Shown piece by piece: positions 1 to 20,215 of a DNA stretch of 20,215 nt. The DNA is taken from positions 1 to 20,215 of IMG/VR virus record IMGVR_UViG_3300047673_000163. One strand, 5' to 3'. This stretch comes from a virus. How positions within the stretch are numbered: position 1 is the first letter of the stretch; each line of letters opens with the position of its first letter. The notes beneath the pieces are model-generated. The model ran no database searches, was not told where the DNA came from, and was given only the letters and a program-made list of their open reading frames with translations. A program made the position numbers and the translations under genes.

Positions 1-2062
1 CGTTCATAGCGACAATCGAGGGCAATTGCGACTTGAAGGCTTGCGTCAAATCGAGCTTGTCATCCAACCGCCGCAACAAATCCTTGGCCAGATAGTTAGG
101 ATCAATTCCGGGGATTTGAATAAGCAGCGGATAGATGCGTTGCGCGTTCGCCACCTCTTGCGAGGCGTTCGGGCGTCCCATGCTGCCGGCTTCGACTTCC
201 AGCAGGATTTCCTGCGCGATGTCGCCGCGCGTAAACTGCGGCCAGACCGCGCCCTGCCCGACCACTTTCTGCACGGTTGGCTGCGATACTTCCGCCATCA
301 GGATTTGACCGCCGTTGCGCGCCAGCAGCGTCAGCAGGTCATTAAGATCGTCGATGTTCGACCCCATGCTGGTCATGCGCGAGCCTTCGGCCACTTGCGT
401 CTGCGTCGCGGTGGTGTCGGAGGTGCCGCCCAGATTGGCCTCTTGGATGCCGGTGGTGCGAAGAATGTCCTCGTACACCGGATTGACCTCGTACAGATTG
501 TTGTCGATGCCCGGCCCGGCGTAGGCCTGCAACAATTGCTTCACATCTTGGTTGGGCTGCAAGGCGTTCAACTCGACCACGTCATTGGCCTTGCGTTCCG
601 ACAGCTTGGTTAAGTCCTCCTCCTCCATCGAACCGGCCACCACGGCGGTGAACGGCCGCGCGGCGATGCGTTGCTCCTTCAGCCCTTCACGGCAGCGATT
701 GTATTCAAGCTGCATGTCGCGGATGAGCCGCACGTCGGAGGGCGGGAAAATTTCGGTTTCATGGTCGCACTCGTTAAAGATGAGCGCGTACCAAGGATAA
801 AATCGCTCATTGTAGATTTCGGGTGAGGCCGGTTCACGCAAAAAGTCGGTGTAGCCGTCGCACACCTCGTACACCAAGCCGTCCTTGCGGCAGTAAATCT
901 GCCAGACCGAACAGAAATCGCACTGGCGGTCGGCGGCCTTACCGGCTTCGCGCCACTCGTAGCCGGCGAGCATTTCGCGCGCCATCTGCACCGGGTCCGG
1001 TCCCTTCAGATCGTAGCGCGTGTAGGACGTGTAACTGTCACCGACATCGACGCCGTAGATTTCTTCAATTTCGTTGGGCGTGAGCATGAACTGCTCGCAC
1101 ACCCAGTCGCTGCCAAGGAAATTGCGTAGCTCGATGGTCTTGGTGTCGGGGATGATGTTGGTGGAGAGCGGATAATCAAAGGTCAGACCTTCGCGCGCGA
1201 CGAATTCCGACTCCTTCGCCATGTCGTTAATCATCAGCCGCAACTGTTCGGCCTCCTTGCTGTCGGGTTCGCTAATGTCGTCGGCGATGTCGGCGGCCAG
1301 CCGTTCCATGGTGGCAAGGCGTTCGGAGGCATCCGCAATGCCCTTTTCCAGATCGGGGCGCTTTTCCATCACCCGCTCAAAGCCGAGCTTCACATAGCCG
1401 ACGCCGGTGGTGATGGTGCGCCGCACGACAAGCTTCATCATCGACTTGAACGGGTGCGGCTGGTCGGAAACATTATAGGAATACAATAGCTCCAAGGTTT
1501 TCCCCAGCTTGTCGAGCATGGCGTTTTCGGCCTTGACGCGCGCCGCGTCCTGCATCACCGCCATGGCGCCCTGCGCCGCGCCCAGCATCTGCGGCGTCAT
1601 GCCGGAGCCGGTCATCTGCGCCTGCTGTACCATCTGCGCGCCCGACGCCATCAGCGATTGCAGCGTCGATTGCGATTCATCCCACACCGTCGCGTTCATG
1701 CGTTCACGCCGCTTGGCCACTGCCTTGGGATTTTTTGCGTACAGGAACGCGGTTTTTTGCGCGACCAGCCGCAGCGTCAAATTGGCCTTATAGCGCTTGT
1801 CGGTGTCGTCGCGCGACCACTGATGACCAAAGGCAAAGTCTTGGTCGTCAAGCATGCGCTTGAAAGCTTTTTCCCAGTGCGTCTTGGCGGCCTTGACGCG
1901 GCCGGTCCATGCCGCCACCAGCGCCTTGCGCTGGTCGGGCGGGTCGGGCGCGTCGCGCGGAATGTGGTCCTTCTCTGCCGCAAGCACCACGGCTTCCAGC
2001 GGATTGACGGCGCTTTCATCCGGCGTCACGCCGTCGAGCGGTGCGTTCGGGTCTATAGCCAT
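1..2062 (-). CDS. Phage portal protein (C-terminus cut by window edge)
   Basis: The frame is open from the ATG at 2062 to the left edge, giving at least 687 residues, so the C-terminus lies outside the window. Portal proteins form the dodecameric ring at one capsid vertex through which DNA is packaged and ejected. I read it as a portal from its position directly after the large terminase, its large size (typical of podovirus-type portals), and motifs such as DVRLIRDMQLEYN and a Gly/Thr-rich LGGTSDTTATQTQV stretch near residue 560 that resemble this family. A Met/Gln/Ala-rich helix (about residues 140-175) follows the N-terminal domain. The start overlaps the end of the terminase gene by 10 bases (ATGGCTATAG), indicating coupled translation. 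The assignment is by family resemblance, not a search. Confidence 0.85.
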   Translation of the reverse strand, partial: MAIDPNAPLDGVTPDESAVNPLEAVVLAAEKDHIPRDAPDPPDQRKALVAAWTGRVKAAKTHWEKAFKRMLDDQDFAFGHQWSRDDTDKRYKANLTLRLVAQKTAFLYAKNPKAVAKRRERMNATVWDESQSTLQSLMASGAQMVQQAQMTGSGMTPQMLGAAQGAMAVMQDAARVKAENAMLDKLGKTLELLYSYNVSDQPHPFKSMMKLVVRRTITTGVGYVKLGFERVMEKRPDLEKGIADASERLATMERLAADIADDISEPDSKEAEQLRLMINDMAKESEFVAREGLTFDYPLSTNIIPDTKTIELRNFLGSDWVCEQFMLTPNEIEEIYGVDVGDSYTSYTRYDLKGPDPVQMAREMLAGYEWREAGKAADRQCDFCSVWQIYCRKDGLVYEVCDGYTDFLREPASPEIYNERFYPWYALIFNECDHETEIFPPSDVRLIRDMQLEYNRCREGLKEQRIAARPFTAVVAGSMEEEDLTKLSERKANDVVELNALQPNQDVKQLLQAYAGPGIDNNLYEVNPVYEDILRTTGIQEANLGGTSDTTATQTQVAEGSRMTSMGSNIDDLNDLLTLLARNGGQILMAEVSQPTVQKVVGQGAVWPQFTRGDIAQEILLEVEAGSMGRPNASQEVANAQRIYPLLIQIPGIDPNYLAKDLLRRLDDKLDLTQAFKSQLPSIVAMN

Positions 2063-3618
2063 CCGTCGAGGTTCCTTTTGACGCGATCAAGCCCCTCTTG
2101 CTTTTTGGTCTGTGCCCACAAGGCGCGGAATGTCCCCTCTTGCGCCATTGGTTTTTCCGGCTTCTGGCGGTTGCGCGGTCGCATCTTGGCCAGACCCAGA
2201 CCGACGAGCGAGAGCGTATCGACAAAATCGTCCTTGGCGCCCATGGGGAATTTCAAAATCTGGTCCTGCGCCTCTGCCCACCAGCGGCAGAACACCGGGA
2301 AGTGAACCATTTTCATGGCGCTGCGCGCTTGGATGGCTTGCGCGCGCTGCGTCTTGTCAACCGCCGGCGCAATCGGGTCCATGGCGCAGAACACGCGCTT
2401 TTCCAGCATGCGCTTGCGTAAGAAAGGCCCGATTGACTTGGTGATGGCGCCGGCTTCCGCCCACCAGAATTGCGGTTTGTATTTCTCAATCAGCAACAGC
2501 ATGCCTTCGACGGCGGTGTGGCTGTCCACCCGCATCCACACCACGTCGGGCATGATCCAGACATTGTCGGCGACATCGACGCCGACCACCATCAGGCAGG
2601 ATTTGTCGCCCTGCTTGTTCAATGTCACCGCGTGATCGGAAGCGCCGTAGAAGCGCATTTCGTCGAACGCCGGCAGGTCGCGCATGGAATTGTAGCCGAC
2701 CAAATCCTTGGCTTGGAAAAATGCACCGTCGCGCGGTGACGGCTGGCCCTGATAAAGCGCCATGAAGCCGCGCGGGTCGGAGGCGCGAACTTCTTCAAGA
2801 TATTTTTCATCAAAGCGTTCCGGCCACAACGCCTCACCGGGCGCGCGTCCCAGCACGTCGTTATCATCCGCCAGCGCCGGCAGGTCGATGGAGCGCCAGC
2901 GCGTTGCTTCTTCATGGCTGTAATACGGGTTAAGGGGATCGGTGAGCCGGCCTACAAGATCGTCCTCGCTCCACCGCGTTTGAATCATGGTGATGGTGCC
3001 GACCTTGTTCATCAGGCGGGTTTTCAAGACTTGGTTGTACCATTGCCAAAGCTTGTCGCGGATGAGCGGCGAGTCGGCTTCCTCGCGGTCCTTGATGGGA
3101 TCATCGAGCAGGATGGTGTGGGCGCCGCGCCCGGTGATGGCCGAGCCGCGACCAACGCAGAACACAACACCGCCTTCGGTGGTTTCGATGCGGTTGACGG
3201 CGGCCGATTTCTTTTTGATTTCGACCTTGGGAAACACCTGCTTGTATTGCGGCGTCTGCATAATGTCGCGAATCTTGCGGCCCAAGTCCCAACTGTAATG
3301 CTCGTTATAGGTGGCGACGATGATCGAGCGTTCGGGATGGCGGCCGATGTACCACGCCGGGTACATATTCGACGCCAGCGTGGTCTTGCCGGCGCGCGGC
3401 ATGATGGAAATTTTCAGGCGGCGGATTTTCCCCTTTTCCACCTCCTCCAACGCCACGCCGATGACGCGGTGAAATTTCTGCGGTGTGTAAACCGAATAGG
3501 TCGCGTCGTCGGAATTTTCCGGGTCCGGCATCATTAAGCAAGTGAAGTCGATTAAATTATCGCGCGCCTTCAGGATGGCACGTTTACGTTTGAGCAGGAC
3601 CAGATGGCGCGCACTCAC
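2053..3618 (-). CDS. Phage terminase large subunit (ATPase and nuclease)
   Basis: 521 aa, the usual length for TerL. This motor pumps DNA into the capsid through the portal and cuts the concatemer. The N-terminal ATPase has a Walker A-like MPRAGKT (residues 73-79), a Walker B TILLDDP (168-174) and a coupling-type QTRW (213-216). The C-terminal RNase H-like nuclease shows the expected acidic residues: D328 in GASDHAV, E388 in WWAEAG and D467 in KDDFVDTLS. The start is GTG at 3618, five bases after the preceding gene, with a purine-rich AAGGGA about ten bases upstream. All key residues are present, so it should be active. It lies about 11 kb from the small-terminase-like gene at 14,634-14,855, which is unusual because the two subunits are commonly adjacent. 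Confidence 0.95.
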   Translation of the reverse strand: MSARHLVLLKRKRAILKARDNLIDFTCLMMPDPENSDDATYSVYTPQKFHRVIGVALEEVEKGKIRRLKISIMPRAGKTTLASNMYPAWYIGRHPERSIIVATYNEHYSWDLGRKIRDIMQTPQYKQVFPKVEIKKKSAAVNRIETTEGGVVFCVGRGSAITGRGAHTILLDDPIKDREEADSPLIRDKLWQWYNQVLKTRLMNKVGTITMIQTRWSEDDLVGRLTDPLNPYYSHEEATRWRSIDLPALADDNDVLGRAPGEALWPERFDEKYLEEVRASDPRGFMALYQGQPSPRDGAFFQAKDLVGYNSMRDLPAFDEMRFYGASDHAVTLNKQGDKSCLMVVGVDVADNVWIMPDVVWMRVDSHTAVEGMLLLIEKYKPQFWWAEAGAITKSIGPFLRKRMLEKRVFCAMDPIAPAVDKTQRAQAIQARSAMKMVHFPVFCRWWAEAQDQILKFPMGAKDDFVDTLSLVGLGLAKMRPRNRQKPEKPMAQEGTFRALWAQTKKQEGLDRVKRNLDGWL

Positions 3619-3622
3619 TTCG

Positions 3623-3973
3623 CTATCCCTTCGGTCGCCCGACCGGATTCGGGTGTCTAGTGACGTGCTGCGGCACCACTATCTTTTTCGGCGGGCCGCC
3701 GGTCATCGGACGCGACGCCGCGTTACGCGGCACCGGCGGCACCGGCGCCTGTTGCTGCACCATACCGGGCGCCGGCGATGAATGATGCGTGTAGGCATCC
3801 TGCGTGTTCGACACCTGCGGCGGCGGCCCCGGCGGTGGTCCCGGTGGCGGCAGCGGCCCGCTCGCCTGCGGCCCCGGCGAGGCGGCCTGCGTGTCGGATG
3901 GACTGGGCGGATAGAGCGGCGCGTTCGGGATGATCTTGACGCCCGGCGGCGTTTTCGGTGGAGGGAATGCCAT
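3623..3973 (-). CDS. Proline-rich protein upstream of terminase, unknown function
   Basis: 116 aa, very rich in Pro, Gly, Gln and Ser, with PPPGPPPGPPP-like runs in the middle (about residues 42-52) and a basic C-terminus ending GRPKG. It has no membrane segment or signal peptide and is probably disordered. The start at 3973 has a good ribosome-binding site (GAAAGGA, about 6 bases upstream), and the gene ends four bases before the terminase start, so it is likely expressed with terL. I recognise no family. By position it could be a virion or packaging accessory protein, but this is only inference. The low-complexity composition means the frame is supported mainly by its ribosome-binding site and tight packing. 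Confidence 0.65.
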   Translation of the reverse strand: MAFPPPKTPPGVKIIPNAPLYPPSPSDTQAASPGPQASGPLPPPGPPPGPPPQVSNTQDAYTHHSSPAPGMVQQQAPVPPVPRNAASRPMTGGPPKKIVVPQHVTRHPNPVGRPKG

Positions 3974-4013
3974 AACGTTTTCCTTTCACTGACACCTCAG
4001 AATGTTTTGCTCA

Positions 4014-4250
4014 TCATACGAGCAACGGCAGCATGGCTCCGGTAATTTCCCCCAGTCGAAACCCGGCGCGCGGCAGGATCATCTGCACAAGGATGAGGAC
4101 GCACACCAAAATGAAAATGACCCAGATGATTTGCACCACCTTCGGCGGCAGCGCGATGCCGACAACGGTGCCGAGCACCCAAAGGATCAAGTATATCGCG
4201 AGTGCGAGCAGGCAAATATAAATCAGTCCATATATGACACCTTCGATCAT
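4014..4250 (-). CDS. Small two-helix membrane protein (holin candidate)
   Basis: 78 aa with two hydrophobic segments, about residues 5-34 and 38-60, separated by a short LPPK turn, then an amphipathic tail. The size and topology fit a small holin or holin-like inner-membrane protein, and it sits in a cassette with an exported protein, an RlpA-like protein and another membrane protein. The ATG at 4250 follows the TAA of the exported-protein gene by a single base, so the genes are co-translated. No specific holin family is recognised. It could equally be an uncharacterised membrane protein. Confidence 0.7.
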   Translation of the reverse strand: MIEGVIYGLIYICLLALAIYLILWVLGTVVGIALPPKVVQIIWVIFILVCVLILVQMILPRAGFRLGEITGAMLPLLV

Positions 4251-4251
4251 G

Positions 4252-4560
4252 TTAGTGCTCCTTTGGTTGCGGCATGCACTTGCTGCGTTGCGTCGCCGGG
4301 ATCATCACGTTGCCGGTCGCCGGCGTGATCGGGGAATCAAAGCCGGGACCGCCAGCGCCCAGCACGTCGCCACGGCAATCGGTGCGGCGCGCAAGATCGT
4401 AGAACATGCCGACCACCGGGATTGCGGCGATGGTGACGTTTGCGGGTTGCTGCGACGGCGCCTGCTTGTGAATGACAACGTGATGGCGTTTGGCATCGGC
4501 GGCCGTGATCGCTGCCAGCAACACCACGATGGCGGCCAGCGCACAGAGAACCGTTTTCAT
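4252..4560 (-). CDS. Small exported protein with signal peptide
   Basis: 102 aa. The N-terminus MKTVLCALAAIVVLLAAITAA is a typical Sec signal peptide (basic residue, hydrophobic core, small residues before a likely AxA-type cleavage at about residue 22). There is no lipobox cysteine at the cleavage site. The mature part has two cysteines (in RTDCRG and SKCMPQ) that could form a periplasmic disulphide. The ATGA overlap with the RlpA-like gene and the one-base gap to the next membrane-protein gene place it firmly inside the candidate lysis cassette. A periplasmic role (spanin-like or wall-associated) is possible but not shown, since no transmembrane or coiled-coil spanin pattern is evident. Confidence 0.75.
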   Translation of the reverse strand: MKTVLCALAAIVVLLAAITAADAKRHHVVIHKQAPSQQPANVTIAAIPVVGMFYDLARRTDCRGDVLGAGGPGFDSPITPATGNVMIPATQRSKCMPQPKEH

Positions 4561-4985
4561 GCGACCTCCTCCTGCGTTCTGACGAAAGGAAAAATAACTT
4601 CGACTTCGTCATCGGTTTCGATGCCAAGGTATTCCATCAGGCCAAGGCTGATGTCGGCAACGCGGCCGGTGTTTTCGTTCGGTCCCCAGTCCGCCGGCCA
4701 TGCAAGGAATTGCCGGTCGGTGCCGGGCGCGCGCACAAGCGCGACGTAGTCCATGCTGGCCAGCATCGTTTTGGGGAATTCGTCGTAGTTCCAGCGCATC
4801 GCGATGAACGGCACCGAACTATTGAGGCGGCGCGCCAGCCCGCTGGTGCCTTCCGGCTGCACCGCCAGAAACAGATGCGGCGCCGTGTAAATGTCATAGA
4901 TGAAGGCAAGCCCTTCATCGGGCGTAACCCCCATGTCGGTCGGGCCGCCGAACCAAGACACCTTGCCGACAACGTTGAGCGTCAT
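4557..4985 (-). CDS. RlpA-like double-psi beta-barrel protein (cell-wall acting candidate)
   Basis: 142 aa. The C-terminal half (about residues 90-135) carries PADWGP...TGRVADISLGLMEYLGI...DDEVEV. This parallels the RlpA/DPBB signature NDRGP...GRIIDLSxAAAxxLGM...VRV, in which the Asp of D-x-G-P is a catalytic residue of RlpA lytic transglycosylases. The Asp is present here, but the usual upstream catalytic His is not obvious (the matching region reads AMRWNYDEFP). There is no signal peptide, so export would need a holin or a virion route. The gene overlaps both neighbours by ATGA and lies between two small membrane/exported protein genes. This supports, as inference, a role in peptidoglycan binding or cleavage, in lysis or at entry. 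Confidence 0.6.
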   Translation of the reverse strand: MTLNVVGKVSWFGGPTDMGVTPDEGLAFIYDIYTAPHLFLAVQPEGTSGLARRLNSSVPFIAMRWNYDEFPKTMLASMDYVALVRAPGTDRQFLAWPADWGPNENTGRVADISLGLMEYLGIETDDEVEVIFPFVRTQEEVA

Positions 4986-5257
4986 GGTAGCGCCCTTCCG
5001 ATAACTTCCTTAAACAGCATTGATTTGCCGTTGCCGTTTGGCCCTTGCCGACAATCGCGGATGTCCGTCACCAGCTTGCTGATGAGTTCAAGCTGCGTCT
5101 TGCTGCGTTCAGTGACGTTGTTTGAAATTTCGCCAAGCACATAAGCTGCCAGACCCAGAAAGCCGACGTTGACGATGAGCAGCGCAATCGCCAGCGGCGT
5201 AGATTTCATCGCCTCGATGGCGCTGCTGGCGACCTTGCCCGTTACCTCGACCGGCAT
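4982..5257 (-). CDS. Single-pass membrane protein (holin-like candidate)
   Basis: 91 aa. One hydrophobic segment at about residues 20-43 is followed by a polar, probably helical region (residues 44-70, with NNVTERSKTQLELISKLV) and a basic C-terminus. The ATG at 5257 has AAAGGA about 13 bases upstream inside the end of the preceding small gene. It overlaps the RlpA-like gene by ATGA. An N-in membrane anchor with a cytoplasmic or periplasmic coiled-coil tail is compatible with class III-type holins or a spanin-like protein, but sequence alone does not decide. Confidence 0.7.
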   Translation of the reverse strand: MPVEVTGKVASSAIEAMKSTPLAIALLIVNVGFLGLAAYVLGEISNNVTERSKTQLELISKLVTDIRDCRQGPNGNGKSMLFKEVIGRALP

Positions 5258-5266
5258 GCGCGGTGT

Positions 5267-5431
5267 TCATTCCTTTTTGGTTGGCGGCGGCACATAGGGA
5301 TCGGGCACGCCACCGTCAGCGAGCCATTGTTCGTACTCAGCACGATCACGGTTGGCGGGATCGTTCGGAATGAATGCCTGATCGGCTGTGCGGATGACGA
5401 CATCGTTTTGTGTGAGTTGATAGTCTGACAT
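5267..5431 (-). CDS. Small acidic tail-associated protein, copy 2
   Basis: 54 aa, beginning MSDYQLTQNDVVIRTADQAF and containing [21 protein letters not shown]. It is clearly paralogous to the 65-aa protein encoded at 6495-6692. Sequences with R-x-x-E-Y-x-x-W-L-A-x-G-x-x-P-x-P are common at the ends of phage tail-fibre or tail-fibre-assembly proteins, so a chaperone or attachment role with the preceding tail protein is inferred. The start ATG shares one base with the TGA of that tail gene (TGATG). This short gene is easy to miss, but it is supported by the conserved paralogue and the coupling. Confidence 0.8.
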   Translation of the reverse strand: MSDYQLTQNDVVIRTADQAFIPNDPANRDRAEYEQWLADGGVPDPYVPPPTKKE

Positions 5432-6492
5432 CACAGCCTCGCGTCCATAGTCAGGGTCGTTAAAGCGCGTGTTGCCTGATATACAAACGGGCTAATTGCG
5501 CTTGGGCCGTTGATAGTGAACCCCGTACCGCCGCCGGTAAAAGTTGGTATAACTCTCATTTCAGGCGCTAAAAAAATTGACTGACCGGCAACTGCCACAT
5601 CGACAACGCAAGTCATTTTTTGAAAATACCGCTTGCACGTCACCAACTCCTGATCGTAACTCCGCATCACATTCGGCGACTGTGCGGCGGTCGGAGCTTG
5701 GGTGCCGGGGAGGACGACAAGACCAGTGAGATACATATAATCGGTTGTCGAAGCTACACCGTTGGTCGTTCCCGTAACCCCAAGATAACCACCAGACACC
5801 CACGCATTGGCTGGCGCGGTTTGGCCGCTGCCACACATCAGGGCAATGGAGACAGTCAATCCAATCGTATTGTCTTTCGCCCATGTGCCGGTGGTGTCGC
5901 CGGGGATGCTGACGGTTTTGTATTCCCACGCTCCTACGGCATTCATCGTGAATGAGAACGGATATGCTCTATCGGCGGCACCATTTCTTATTGATCCAGA
6001 AAACGCGCCGGTTCGATTTGTGGCAACCCAAAAGCTGACCGTTATCGGCTGTGCGGCTGCTGTCCCCCAAGCCAATCTGCTAACTCGATAACCTTCGATA
6101 GGCTGATAAAAGAAACAATAGTTTCCGGCTGCCGGGCTTGCATTGGCCGTGCTCACGGAAACGTAGGCAGATTTAACAAATCCGGCAGGACCATTTGGTT
6201 GCTGCGATACCGGCAGCACTTGAGCACCACTTGTTCCCAGCATCCAGCCATCAAGAATGTATTTGGTGCTACTCACCACCACGGCAGAAGTGCCATTCTC
6301 CTGACTGACCTCCATTCCGCCGTTGACCTGTATGCCACTGTACGCCATCGCATCGAACGGGGCGTAGATGACGCCGCTGCTGCTCGACACCGCCCACTTT
6401 TCGCCGTCCCATTTATAGACCGGCTGACCGACCACCGGCGGCGATGGATAAAGCTGGCCAATGCTGGGTGAAATGGGAAAATCTAGCGCCAT
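5431..6492 (-). CDS. Tail / receptor-binding protein, paralogue 2
   Basis: 353 aa from the ATG at 6492, chosen because GAGGAG lies 7 bases upstream and the protein then begins with MALDFPISPSIGQLYPSP, a Trp/Gly-containing module (KWDGEKW) typical of phage tail or collar proteins. An in-frame upstream extension to 6588 overlaps the preceding gene and is rejected. From about residue 42 to the end it is paralogous to the 625-aa protein at 6692-8569 (shared [39 protein letters not shown], GDTxGTW, [13 protein letters not shown]). The shared part looks beta-rich and is likely the host-surface-binding domain. The two C-termini diverge most, as expected for receptor specificity. Confidence 0.85.
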   Translation of the reverse strand: MALDFPISPSIGQLYPSPPVVGQPVYKWDGEKWAVSSSSGVIYAPFDAMAYSGIQVNGGMEVSQENGTSAVVVSSTKYILDGWMLGTSGAQVLPVSQQPNGPAGFVKSAYVSVSTANASPAAGNYCFFYQPIEGYRVSRLAWGTAAAQPITVSFWVATNRTGAFSGSIRNGAADRAYPFSFTMNAVGAWEYKTVSIPGDTTGTWAKDNTIGLTVSIALMCGSGQTAPANAWVSGGYLGVTGTTNGVASTTDYMYLTGLVVLPGTQAPTAAQSPNVMRSYDQELVTCKRYFQKMTCVVDVAVAGQSIFLAPEMRVIPTFTGGGTGFTINGPSAISPFVYQATRALTTLTMDARL

Positions 6493-6494
6493 GG

Positions 6495-6692
6495 TCAGGC
6501 TCCTCGCGATTTTTTGCTGGTTGTTTCCGGTGCAGGTTTTGCCGCGCTGCTTGTCGCAGGATCGGGCGTGTTGCCTTGCGCCAGCCACGCTTCATACTCA
6601 GCACGATCACGGTTGGCGGGGTCGTTCGGAATGAACGCCTGATCGGCGGTGCGGACAACGATGTCGGTTGTGGTGAGTTGATAGTCTGCCAT
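6495..6692 (-). CDS. Small acidic tail-associated protein, copy 1
   Basis: 65 aa, [20 protein letters not shown] then [20 protein letters not shown], with an Ala/Pro/Lys-rich tail that the second copy lacks. The ATG at 6692 shares a base with the TAA of the tail gene (TAATG), so it is translationally coupled to its tail protein, exactly as copy 2 is. A longer frame reaching 6830 would run over the tail gene and is not used. Function is inferred from genetic pairing: a tail-fibre chaperone or small attachment subunit. Confidence 0.82.
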
Positions 6693-8569
6693 TAGAGCCT
6701 CGCGTCTGCGACCCAGTGTGCCGACAAAAGATAAGTTGTTCCTGACGCAATTTGTGCTGTAATCATCCCGCCGCGCTCGTTGATAGCAAGGATAGTAGCG
6801 GGCCAAGGACCGCTTTGTGAATTGTCCCAAACCGTCCCTGCTGTTCCGTTCGTCGTTCCATAAGATGTGAGAGTTGGTGCTGCTCTTTTCGGAATGAACT
6901 GCATCCCAAGCCCAACGGTAGTTGTTACAGGGACACTCGCTCCATAATATATAGCCGCACCACCAAGACCTGTGGCCGTTCCGGGCCTTACCGCATAAGG
7001 ATAACTCTTTTCATAGTATCGTTGGCACATCAGCAATTCCTGATCGAACGGCCGCATCACATTCATCGACTGTGCGGCGGTTGGTGCTTGATTGCCGGGG
7101 AGGACGGTGACGCCGGTCATAATGAAATAATCAGAAGTCGCGGCAACGCCGTTGACTGTTCCAGTTGCCCCAAGCTGAACAGTCGAACTCCAAGCCCCGG
7201 CCGCACCCTGATTGTTGCTCCCAGACATAATGGAAAAATGAACGGCCAAACCAATGGAATTGTCCGCCGTCCACGTCCCGGCAGTATCACCGGGTATGGT
7301 GACAGTGAAATACTGCCAAGCGCCGGATGTGGTGTAGTTGAACGTAAATATGTAGCCACGGTTTGCAGCGCCGTTGCGAACGCAGCCAGAATAAAGGCCA
7401 GTGCGGTTTGCGATCAGCCAAAACCCGAGCGTAATCGGTTGTGCCGCCGCCGTCCCCCAAGCAAGGCGCTTGATACGGTAGCCCTCAATGAACTGACGGA
7501 GCGTGCAATAGTCTGCTGCCGCCGGAGTTGGGTTTGCTGTCGTCACCGCTAACTGCAAGCCACTGTTTAGACCGGCTAAGGTTAAGTCCACTCTTTGAGT
7601 GCAAGAAAGGACATGCGCGCCGGAGGAGGCGATATTCCAGCCGTCAACAATGTATTTTACACCAGTAGGGACGGACACGGAGACAGCCCCATTCTCCTGA
7701 CTGACCTCCATACCGCCATTGATCTGCATGCCGCTGTACGCCATCGCATCGAACGGTGCGGCGTAGATGTTGGCCCTCCCCTGTTGCTGCTGCGGCGCCG
7801 TCAGCGACTGTGCAGTGTCGTAGCGCACAACGGTACTGTTGAGCGCGTAGGCGGACGAATCCGGCACCGCGAACGCCGTCACCCATTGCGTGGTGTTGCC
7901 GTCGTTGTAGCGCACATAGAGCGTGCCGGTGTCGCTCTCCCACCACATCGCATTGTCAACGGCGCCCGCCGGCGCGTTGTCGGAAATAAGAAGTGCCGGG
8001 CGGCTATCGACGTATTGCTTGGTGGCGGCCTGCAAATTGGTGGACGGATTGCCCGACAGCGTCAGCAGTCCGGTCATCGTTGAACCAGCCTTGGCGACGT
8101 AGGCATTGTTGGCATTGGTGACGGCGCTGGCATCGGCGGCGGTGAAGGCGGCGGTGACGGCGGCATCGCCTGCGTCGGTATATTGCTTGGTGGCGGCGCC
8201 CAGCGGCGCGGTCGGATCGCCCGATAACACCAATGGTCCGGTCATGGTGTCGCCGGCGGTATCGACGGCTTGGCTCTGGTCGAGATAGACCGCCCAGTTG
8301 GTCGCGTTGAAGGCGCCGGGACTGACCGCAACCTTGGCGCGGTAGAGCACGCCGGCGTTGATGACGAAGTCGCCGATGGCGTATTGCGCGCGCGCATCAA
8401 AGAAGCGCACCGCCAGCAGCATCAAGGGATTGCCGAGCGAACCGGCATTGGCGTCGCCGACAACGATCTGCCGGTTGGCGGTGTTGACGGCAATCTCACC
8501 CGGCTCGATTGGCGACGGGAACGGAGTGGCCGGGTTGGACGTGCGCTGGTGCCGATAATGCGAGGTCAT
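6692..8569 (-). CDS. Tail fibre / receptor-binding protein, paralogue 1
   Basis: 625 aa. Order: an N-terminal module starting [19 protein letters not shown] with an [15 protein letters not shown] segment typical of virion attachment; a carbohydrate-binding-like motif at about 59-95 ([18 protein letters not shown]...NW); two tail-fibre repeats of the type [25 protein letters not shown] (residues 105-132 and 162-188); a [17 protein letters not shown] segment (209-225); then the large C-terminal domain (about 270-625) shared with the 353-aa paralogue. The TMTG...ATKQYVD repeat is well known in fibres of many tailed phages. It starts five bases after the preceding gene ends. Expected location is the distal tail, contacting the host surface. 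Confidence 0.9.
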
Positions 8570-16234: not shown

Positions 16235-17128
16235 ATGAAAAAAGACCTGTACCAGACAGTAACAAACCGAATTCTTTCTGAACTGGAAAAAGGCTGTGTG
16301 CCATGGGTCAAGCCATGGGCAGCGACAGCCGGTGCCAATCAACCTTGCAATGCGGATACCGGCCGGCCGTATTCGGGCGTCAATATCATCCTGATTTGGC
16401 AAGCCATGGCATCTAATCCGCAGTGGACGACTCCCCGCTTCCTGACGTTCAAGCAATGCCAAGCGCTAGGCGGACACGTCAAAAAGGATGAGCACGGCAT
16501 ACAGGTTTACTTTGTGAAGCCGCTACTGGTTAAGGGCAAGAAAGAACAGCCAGCCGGTGATGAAGAATTGAAGCGCATCACCATGTTGCGCGAATTCACC
16601 GTTTTCAACGTCGCCCAATGCGACAACTTGCCGGCCCGTTGCCTTGGCACAGTCGCGCCAAAAATCAGGAACAAGGACAGCCGCGACTCTACCGTTGACT
16701 CATTCATTGCCACGCTTGGCAGCGACTTGAGGCATGGCGAGGACCGGGCTTACTACGCTTCCAGCCATGACTTTGTGATGTTGCCTAACTTCCAAGACTT
16801 CAAAGGCGCTGACCATTACTATGCGACAAGCTTCCATGAACACGGCCATTGGACTGGCAACGAAAAGCGGCTTAACCGCGAATTCGGAAAGCGCTTTGGC
16901 GACAAGGCCTATGCGGCGGAAGAATTGGTCGCTGAACTCACAGCGGCTTTCCTTTGCGCTGAATTCGGTATCGACGGCGATTTGCGCCATGCGGCCTATG
17001 TGTCGAACTGGATTGCTATTCTAAAGTCAGACTCCAAAGCATTCTTCACAGCGGCAAGCGCTGCACAAAAGGCCGCCGATTATATGCGCGGCCTTGCACT
17101 CGCAGAGCCGCTTGCAGTCGCGGCCTAG
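16235..17128 (+). CDS. ardC: ArdC-type antirestriction protein (ssDNA-binding plus zincin metalloprotease-like)
   Basis: 297 aa, the usual length of ArdC. Residues 1-130 match the ArdC N-terminal single-strand-DNA-binding domain (LYQTVTNRILSELEKG, PWVKPW, GRPYSGVNIILIW, FLTFKQCQALGGHVKK, TVFNVAQCDNLPAR). The C-terminal half has a zincin motif HEHGH (201-205) followed by WTG and by the glutamates of AAEELVAELTAAFL (about 229-240), the expected third zinc ligand region. ArdC proteins protect incoming DNA from type I/II restriction and are found on conjugative plasmids and phages. Here it is the first gene of the operon, suited to immediate expression after DNA entry. The motif is intact; which nuclease it blocks cannot be read. 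Confidence 0.92.
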   Translation: MKKDLYQTVTNRILSELEKGCVPWVKPWAATAGANQPCNADTGRPYSGVNIILIWQAMASNPQWTTPRFLTFKQCQALGGHVKKDEHGIQVYFVKPLLVKGKKEQPAGDEELKRITMLREFTVFNVAQCDNLPARCLGTVAPKIRNKDSRDSTVDSFIATLGSDLRHGEDRAYYASSHDFVMLPNFQDFKGADHYYATSFHEHGHWTGNEKRLNREFGKRFGDKAYAAEELVAELTAAFLCAEFGIDGDLRHAAYVSNWIAILKSDSKAFFTAASAAQKAADYMRGLALAEPLAVAA

Positions 17129-19548: not shown

Positions 19549-19757
19549 TGGACTGGGTCGTAGGGATTGCCGTTTTGTATGGCCTTTATTGGCTGGCCCA
19601 CAAAATGATCGACGTTTTTTTATATCCGCCAGAGGTTAGGGCGGAAGAAGCGAGGCGCGAAGCTGAATGGGAGGCCACTCGCAAGAGTTACGAAGCCATG
19701 CAGGAGCTACAATTCCGCAACCGTATGGAAGAAGCGAAGCGACAGGCACGACCATGA
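19548..19757 (+). CDS. Small membrane-anchored coiled-coil protein
   Basis: 69 aa: an N-terminal membrane segment ([20 protein letters not shown], about residues 3-25), then a highly charged helical tail ([20 protein letters not shown]). AAGGAG lies inside the upstream gene 8 bases before the start. Its stop overlaps the recombinase start (ATGA). No family is recognised; exclusion, spanin-like or anchoring roles are possible. Confidence 0.7.
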
Positions 19758-20215
19758 CTAAAGCCGTCATTGCCTACTATCGGGTATCGACGCAGAAGCA
19801 AGGCCGCAGCGGGCTGGGCTTGGAAGCCCAGCGCGCGGCGGTGTTGCGTTTCATCGAAGCCGAACAACTAAAGCTACTGGCGGAATTCACAGAGGTGGAA
19901 ACCGGCAAAGGCTCAGACGCCCTTGACCGTCGCCCGCAGCTTGCCGCCGCCATGCAGGCAGCCAAGAAGCAAGGTGCTTCGATTGTGGTGGCCAAGCTCG
20001 ACCGCCTTTCCCGCGACGTTGCGTTTATATCGACGCTGATGGTGCGCAAGGTGCCGTTCATCACCGCCGAATTGGGCACGCAAGCCGACCCGTTCATGCT
20101 GCACATCTATGCCGCACTGGCAGAACAGGAACGGCGGATGATTAGCCAGCGCACCAAGGCCGCACTCAAGGCCGCCAAGGCGCGCGGTGCCAGAATCGGA
20201 ACGCCGGACTTTGTA
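19754..20215 (+). CDS. Serine recombinase (resolvase/invertase/integrase), C-terminus cut by window edge
   Basis: 154 codons are visible to the right edge. The N-terminal catalytic domain has YYRVSTQ with R10 and the nucleophile S12, QRAAV (26-30), [11 protein letters not shown] (78-88) with the conserved arginines, and [16 protein letters not shown] (123-138), the start of the long E helix. All catalytic residues seen are intact. The missing C-terminus decides whether it is a small resolvase/invertase or a large phage integrase, so the substrate is not known. It is translationally coupled to the upstream membrane protein and ends the early module, consistent with integration or site-specific inversion. 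Confidence 0.92.

Follow-up and report, generated by a model that had tools for sequence, protein, structure and literature searches.

A holin-linked double-psi beta-barrel protein as the probable accessory half of a split phage lysis system

Positions 4014-5257 of a 20,215-bp soil-phage sequence (hereafter the window, which is the whole stretch of DNA analysed and the complete IMG/VR record IMGVR_UViG_3300047673_000163) probably form a lysis cassette, in which a double-psi beta-barrel (DPBB) protein of 142 residues would be an accessory, glycan-directed endolysin half encoded without its catalytic partner. On this favoured reading the lysis system is split, and the holin-linked DPBB protein complements peptidases encoded elsewhere in the genome. 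The evidence computed here comprises the fold, residue conservation, domain fusions, synteny with genes for transmembrane (TM) proteins and the presence of other hydrolases. An earlier note on this DNA had proposed an unconventional lysis cassette built on an RlpA-like protein, an interpretation that is partly supported: the cassette and the part of the DPBB protein in lysis stand, whereas the idea that lysis was built on this protein for want of an endolysin does not.

Gene order and the fold of the 142-aa protein

The window is probably a fragment of a phage genome, and since the record is probably partial, genes that are absent from it allow no inference on the whole phage. Its left half is taken up by a minus-strand late operon, and no tRNA gene was found in the window. 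The relevant features, from upstream to downstream, are as follows.

6692-8569, minus strand: tail fibre protein, upstream of the fibre gene at 5431-6588
5431-6588, minus strand: tail fibre protein (phrog_4492, 7.4e-30), the upstream landmark
Between the tail fibre genes and the 91-aa gene, minus strand: gene for a 55-aa protein
4982-5257, minus strand: 91-aa candidate holin with a single TM segment; shares an ATGA with the DPBB gene
4557-4985, minus strand: stand-alone DPBB-domain protein, 142 aa, assigned by AlphaFold2 (AF2)/Foldseek fold and fused homologues
4252-4560, minus strand: 102-aa exported protein whose N-terminus resembles a signal peptide; overlaps the DPBB gene by ATGA
4014-4250, minus strand: 78-aa membrane protein with 2-3 hydrophobic segments
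3623-3973, minus strand: Pro-rich 116-aa ORF, which separates the cassette from TerL
2053-3618, minus strand: terminase large subunit, TerL (phrog_38, 5.6e-95; PF03237), the downstream landmark
After TerL in the late operon, minus strand: 687-aa ORF, portal-like

Two small membrane proteins, one exported protein and the DPBB protein are therefore encoded between tail and terminase genes, as the earlier note had described. The cassette is tightly packed, with ATGA overlaps on both sides of the DPBB gene (4982-4985 with the 91-aa gene and 4557-4560 with the 102-aa gene) and a 1-nt gap between the 102-aa and 78-aa genes. For these four proteins Pfam gave no significant match, and PHROGs none to a family of named function. 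Homologues of all four genes were found in other phages, so the cassette is not a chance arrangement. No recognisable peptidoglycan hydrolase was found within the window when its 20 main ORFs were compared with Pfam and 10 of them also with PHROGs.

Upstream of the cassette, the unit of tail fibre and small downstream protein is tandemly duplicated (window 5267-6588 and 6495-8569, with different lengths); the fibre genes share 64.6% nucleotide identity over 777 bp, and the 55-aa and 111-aa proteins are homologous. An ArdC-like anti-restriction protein is encoded at window 16235-17128 (ArdcN, 9e-35; zincin-like MPTase-PolyVal, 4e-47).

Sequence searches with the 142-aa protein against Pfam, PHROGs and PDB sequences gave no match, nor did tblastn against 50,697 named phages, and the DPBB_1 profile (PF03330) matched it neither by hmmscan nor in a genome search. 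Structure prediction, the check that the earlier note had suggested, gave a DPBB fold in an AF2 model based on the 47-row family alignment (pLDDT 88.8, pTM 0.84). The best compact PDB match by Foldseek was the RlpA-type structure of PA4485 (4avr; TM-score 0.68 by target). Foldseek also matched designed DPBBs, a loosenin, the GH75 chitosanase V-Csn (7tvl; 23% identity to the 142-aa protein), a baseplate hub from cyanophage A-1(L) (8kea) and phage proteins that carry the annotation rare lipoprotein A. By sequence, both of the top PDB matches (4avr and 8kea) are RlpA-type. At the level of the predicted model, the 142-aa protein is thus confirmed as a double-psi beta-barrel nearest to RlpA-type domains.

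Across the 47 rows of the family alignment 41 residues are invariant, including D99, W100, G101, P102, R108 and D111. In a single hhalign comparison with rhizobial RlpA (E 5e-5, probability 67%), which covers the C-terminal half of the protein, D99-W-G-P falls on D-R-G-P and A-D111-I-S on I-D-V-S; the aspartate of the D-x-G-P motif, which the earlier note had seen as kept, is accordingly joined by a second one. That note had also described the RlpA histidine and a signal peptide as apparently lacking, and both are indeed absent. The A-A-H region of RlpA, whose histidine is catalytic, reads A-(C/M)-R-W in this family with an invariant R64, and no histidine is invariant in the 47 rows. The first barrel strand lies right at the start of the protein, which carries no signal peptide, lipobox or SPOR domain, and is followed by an insertion of about 40 residues with FGGP, LARRL and RW motifs. 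No peptidoglycan-hydrolase catalytic domain was recognised in the protein by Pfam or PHROGs, a result that counts against the split system.

A different reading of the invariant acidic pair is that the DPBB protein cuts glycan itself as an active endolysin, either a lytic transglycosylase of the RlpA/MltA type or a hydrolase of the GH45/GH75 type, which would use D111 as the acid, dispense with a histidine and be freed by the 91-aa holin. We regard this, the strong form of the idea in the earlier note, as possible though doubtful. It gains from the alignment of both aspartates with those of RlpA and from the 3D domain of MltA, where the members of the last aspartate pair, D317 and D328, are 11 residues apart against 12 for D99 and D111, and D328 is crucial for catalysis (PMC10127604). 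It loses from the replacement of the RlpA histidine region by A-(C/M)-R-W with R64, from the different spacing of 9 in the catalytic pair D148/E157 of V-Csn (PMC9485262), a comparison of spacing and not of aligned sites, and from the expansins, which are non-lytic and need the same aspartate pair, there D71 and D82 (PMC3995998). The likeness to MltA, V-Csn and expansin was drawn from motif spacing and fold rather than from a computed residue alignment. Because non-lytic expansins need it too, the aspartate pair is no proof of catalysis, and since these positions are common to glycan-cutting DPBBs and expansins, sequence alone offers no choice between cleavage and loosening.

Relatives of the DPBB domain and its neighbouring genes

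Relatives of the 142-aa gene were collected from 99 viral stretches, 80 loci of which were kept; with one Bradyrhizobium prophage they make up a set of 81. In 55 of these the domain shares a polypeptide with another endolysin-type module: Amidase_3 in 46 (N-terminal in 31 and C-terminal in 15), a CHAP/hub-lysozyme-like domain with PG_binding_1 in six, GH25 in two (about 1e-29 and 1e-28) and an M15-like domain with PG_binding_1 in one. The domain stands alone, as in the window, in 23 relatives and is cut by the contig end in the other three. Most Amidase_3 fusions were assigned by motif and homology, and Pfam was run on examples (3e-23 and 3e-24; PHROG endolysin, about 1e-51). For example, the amidase half of L013 is 41% identical over residues 5-165 to Ply of Listeria phage PSA. 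The fusion is the sole Amidase_3 in 19 of the 19 amidase-fusion records examined, and no M15 or VanY match above cut-off was found in these records. In addition, two extra relatives came from 392 Bradyrhizobium-family genomes. One of them (L100:958-2700, genome G121) is a 580-aa chain of a membrane domain (phrog_1544), DPBB and an M15_4 peptidase (6.5e-15), in which holin and endolysin are apparently merged; the other (L101) combines DPBB with a CHAP-like domain (7.8e-5). This distribution identifies the DPBB family as a recurrent endolysin building block in environmental phages and a Bradyrhizobium prophage.

The fusions bear on two of the alternatives. A glycan-cutting DPBB would suit a domain that is mostly fused to amidases, given that RlpA works on glycans denuded by amidases (PMC6895207), and L058 and L080 already have hydrolase-like and binding modules next to DPBB. 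The second alternative is a virion component, at the tail tip or baseplate, that loosens the wall during entry. The gene lies directly after the tail-fibre genes, and, ranked by E-value, the A-1(L) baseplate hub with its RlpA-type domain heads the PDB fold matches; that tail baseplates too can contain DPBB domains (8kea) counts against the split system. However, in the relatives the domain is fused to leaderless proteins with matches to PHROG 'endolysin' families, and hub or fibre proteins are not among its partners, apart from the hub-lysozyme-like domain of L058. Small TM genes adjoin the DPBB gene, and the 4-nt overlaps join it to genes for membrane and exported proteins. We consider a virion role improbable.

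The neighbouring genes argue for the lysis cassette. The 91-aa protein, whose family was aligned in 16 rows, matches no library family of named function, and its homologues adjoin DPBB or endolysin genes in L012, L013, L015-L017, L019, L021, L037, L047, L050, L054, L055 and L081. In L015-L017 the homologue (69% identity) shares 4 nt with a DPBB-Amidase_3 gene, at the place where the window has DPBB alone. Of 44 DPBB genes, 31 have a small TM ORF on the same strand no more than 60 nt away, compared with 56 of 456 other genes in the same loci (Fisher 1.7e-16, for loci that are not fully independent). In record G018 a separate Amidase_3 gene (L091:11361-12292) is overlapped by a holin-like gene of the 91-aa TM family and the DPBB of the same phage (L049) stands alone, which would represent a natural split of a fused endolysin. 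The arrangement of TM gene and DPBB/endolysin gene looks like a holin-endolysin pair, and from its size, TM segment and position we infer that the 91-aa protein is a candidate holin. Because most relatives have the domain as part of a genuine endolysin and TM-gene homologues adjoin those endolysin genes, the DPBB protein is assigned to lysis.

The 102-aa protein has two conserved cysteines in its mature part, and its homologues (window 4252-4560, L025:1000-1317, L026:8313-8735, L068:6644-6949 and L069:2296-2643) were found only beside stand-alone DPBB genes, namely in the window's own species, L025, L026, L061/L069-L071 and L068, and never beside fusions. An amidase remnant is ruled out, as these proteins form a conserved family of their own and carry a signal peptide. 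An O-spanin was also rejected: the protein is without a lipobox cysteine, and its AF2 model (pLDDT 49.7) is uninformative. Homologues of the 78-aa gene are confined to the same species and L061/L069-L071, with a dN/dS of 0.14 against L069; its product is a candidate second holin or spanin. The Pro-rich 116-aa ORF, for which Pfam and PHROGs gave no family, is conserved downstream of the 78-aa homologue in L061/L069-L071.

A third alternative is decay, in which the DPBB protein would be a remnant of a DPBB-amidase endolysin that has lost its amidase half and has no present function. At the syntenic position L015 has a fusion, and the tree of the domain requires a switch between stand-alone and fused forms three times or more. 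Yet the window copy retains all family-invariant residues, and the gene is under purifying selection, with four synonymous and one non-synonymous codon change against L009 and a low dN/dS of 0.23 against L069. Furthermore, stand-alone forms persist in divergent phages beside the same exported partner gene. A functionless relic is very improbable.

Hydrolases outside the window and a proposed division of labour

Two further contigs, G002 and G004, match window 1-7090 at 99.96% and window 1-6612 at 95.8%, respectively, and by this identity are longer contigs of the same phage; both run on into virion genes. They encode a 190-aa M15-type protein with a signal-peptide-like leader (L082:3905-4477), whose match to PF13539 (M15_4; 9.8e-5) lies at the cut-off, with 23.3 bits of 25 in one search and 25.2 in another; the zinc motif HxxxxxxD...DxxH and the leader were read by eye. 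They also encode a Pro-rich protein of 849 residues whose N-terminal part matches Amidase_2 (1.3e-20; L082:4474-7023); it follows large, probable internal virion proteins and is a probable virion entry hydrolase. The M15_4 and Amidase_2 genes rule out the DPBB protein as the phage's sole lysin. Another gene (L082:10850-11548) was rejected as an Rz-like spanin, since its PHROG match (3.6e-5) probably reflects a coiled coil or low complexity in an internal virion protein. A tyrosine integrase gene on G002 (L082:239-1387) indicates that the phage is probably temperate; a serine resolvase-type recombinase is encoded at window 19667-20215.

The statement of the earlier note that no conventional endolysin is visible holds for the window but does not carry over to the phage, and the apparent lack is an effect of the fragment, as genes for the exported M15-type peptidase and the Amidase_2 protein lie on the longer contigs. 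Of the finding that the note had named as speaking against its idea, a standard endolysin elsewhere with its own holin, the endolysin part has largely been borne out; the holin part has not, because the holin-like gene sits in the cassette, as in T7, where holin and lysozyme genes lie far apart.

Similar partners are seen in other phages with a stand-alone DPBB. G023 and G024 encode homologues (67-68%) of the M15_4 protein of this species, and VanY is found in G013, G017 and G018, the last with a separate Amidase_3 as well; the long records G016 and G020 showed neither M15, VanY nor a separate Amidase_3. The pattern of fused against separately complemented domains across records (Fisher 2.6e-4, with kinship ignored) fits a DPBB module that would be either fused to a separate enzyme or complemented by one. 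Several VanY matches sit in large, probably virion proteins. Some observations weigh against the split system: an Amidase_3 homologous to the endolysins of the relatives is absent from all contigs of this species, the M15_4 score is around the cut-off, and the Amidase_2 protein and the VanY matches may serve entry rather than lysis.

In the split system that we favour, the 91-aa TM protein, perhaps with the other TM protein, would open the inner membrane late in infection as a holin does, and the leaderless DPBB protein would then reach the periplasm and peptidoglycan through the opened membrane. Its cleft, to which the invariant D99 and D111 would belong, would engage glycan strands, by cleaving, binding or loosening them, while the exported M15-type peptidase and/or the Amidase_2 protein would cut the peptide part. 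Since RlpA works on amidase-denuded glycan and most relatives couple the domain to an amidase, an order of peptides first and glycan next is suggested here. Holin activity, transport, glycan binding and cooperation are the parts of this model that we infer. A bolder view, rather unlikely in our estimation, is that this family, absent from both Pfam and PHROGs, serves widely as an interchangeable endolysin module in soil phages of Bradyrhizobium-like hosts and is a new glycan-cleaving class that does without the RlpA histidine, here free-standing, holin-released and working with a Sec-exported peptidase.

Comparison with known systems

The window protein and RlpA (PF03330, DPBB_1) are alike in the DPBB fold and in the aspartates of D-x-G-P and (A/I)-D-(I/V)-S, whereas the former has no Pfam hit, A-A-H, signal peptide or lipobox, or SPOR domain and carries the insertion of about 40 residues. 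In Ply of phage PSA, a binding domain accompanies Amidase_3; the DPBB of the relatives occupies the place of this binding domain, and the window has the DPBB half alone. The late genes of T7 run from tail fibre through holin gp17.5, TerS and spanins to TerL, with lysozyme gp3.5 far away. The window likewise has its candidate membrane-protein genes for lysis placed between the tail fibre and TerL genes, with peptidoglycan hydrolases encoded elsewhere, but its cassette differs in the inserted DPBB protein. The window protein shares a DPBB core and acidic cleft residues with GH75 V-Csn (7tvl, from soil viruses) and with the expansins and loosenins, but V-Csn has a second domain and the D148/E157 pair, and expansins, which act on the walls of plant cells, carry an additional binding domain.

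Among phage lytic proteins, PhaLP counts PF03330 only twice (PMC8310338), and a literature search for DPBB or rare lipoprotein A together with endolysin or holin found nothing comparable; in the literature searched, DPBBs are almost absent from endolysins and hardly known there. The family described here goes undetected by Pfam and PHROGs, and the finding accounts for the way in which phages such as this one may seem to lack an endolysin. The union of an RlpA-like fold and an amidase in one polypeptide makes a lysis mechanism of amidase plus glycan module testable. The cassette is a variation on modular and split endolysins rather than a new principle of lysis.
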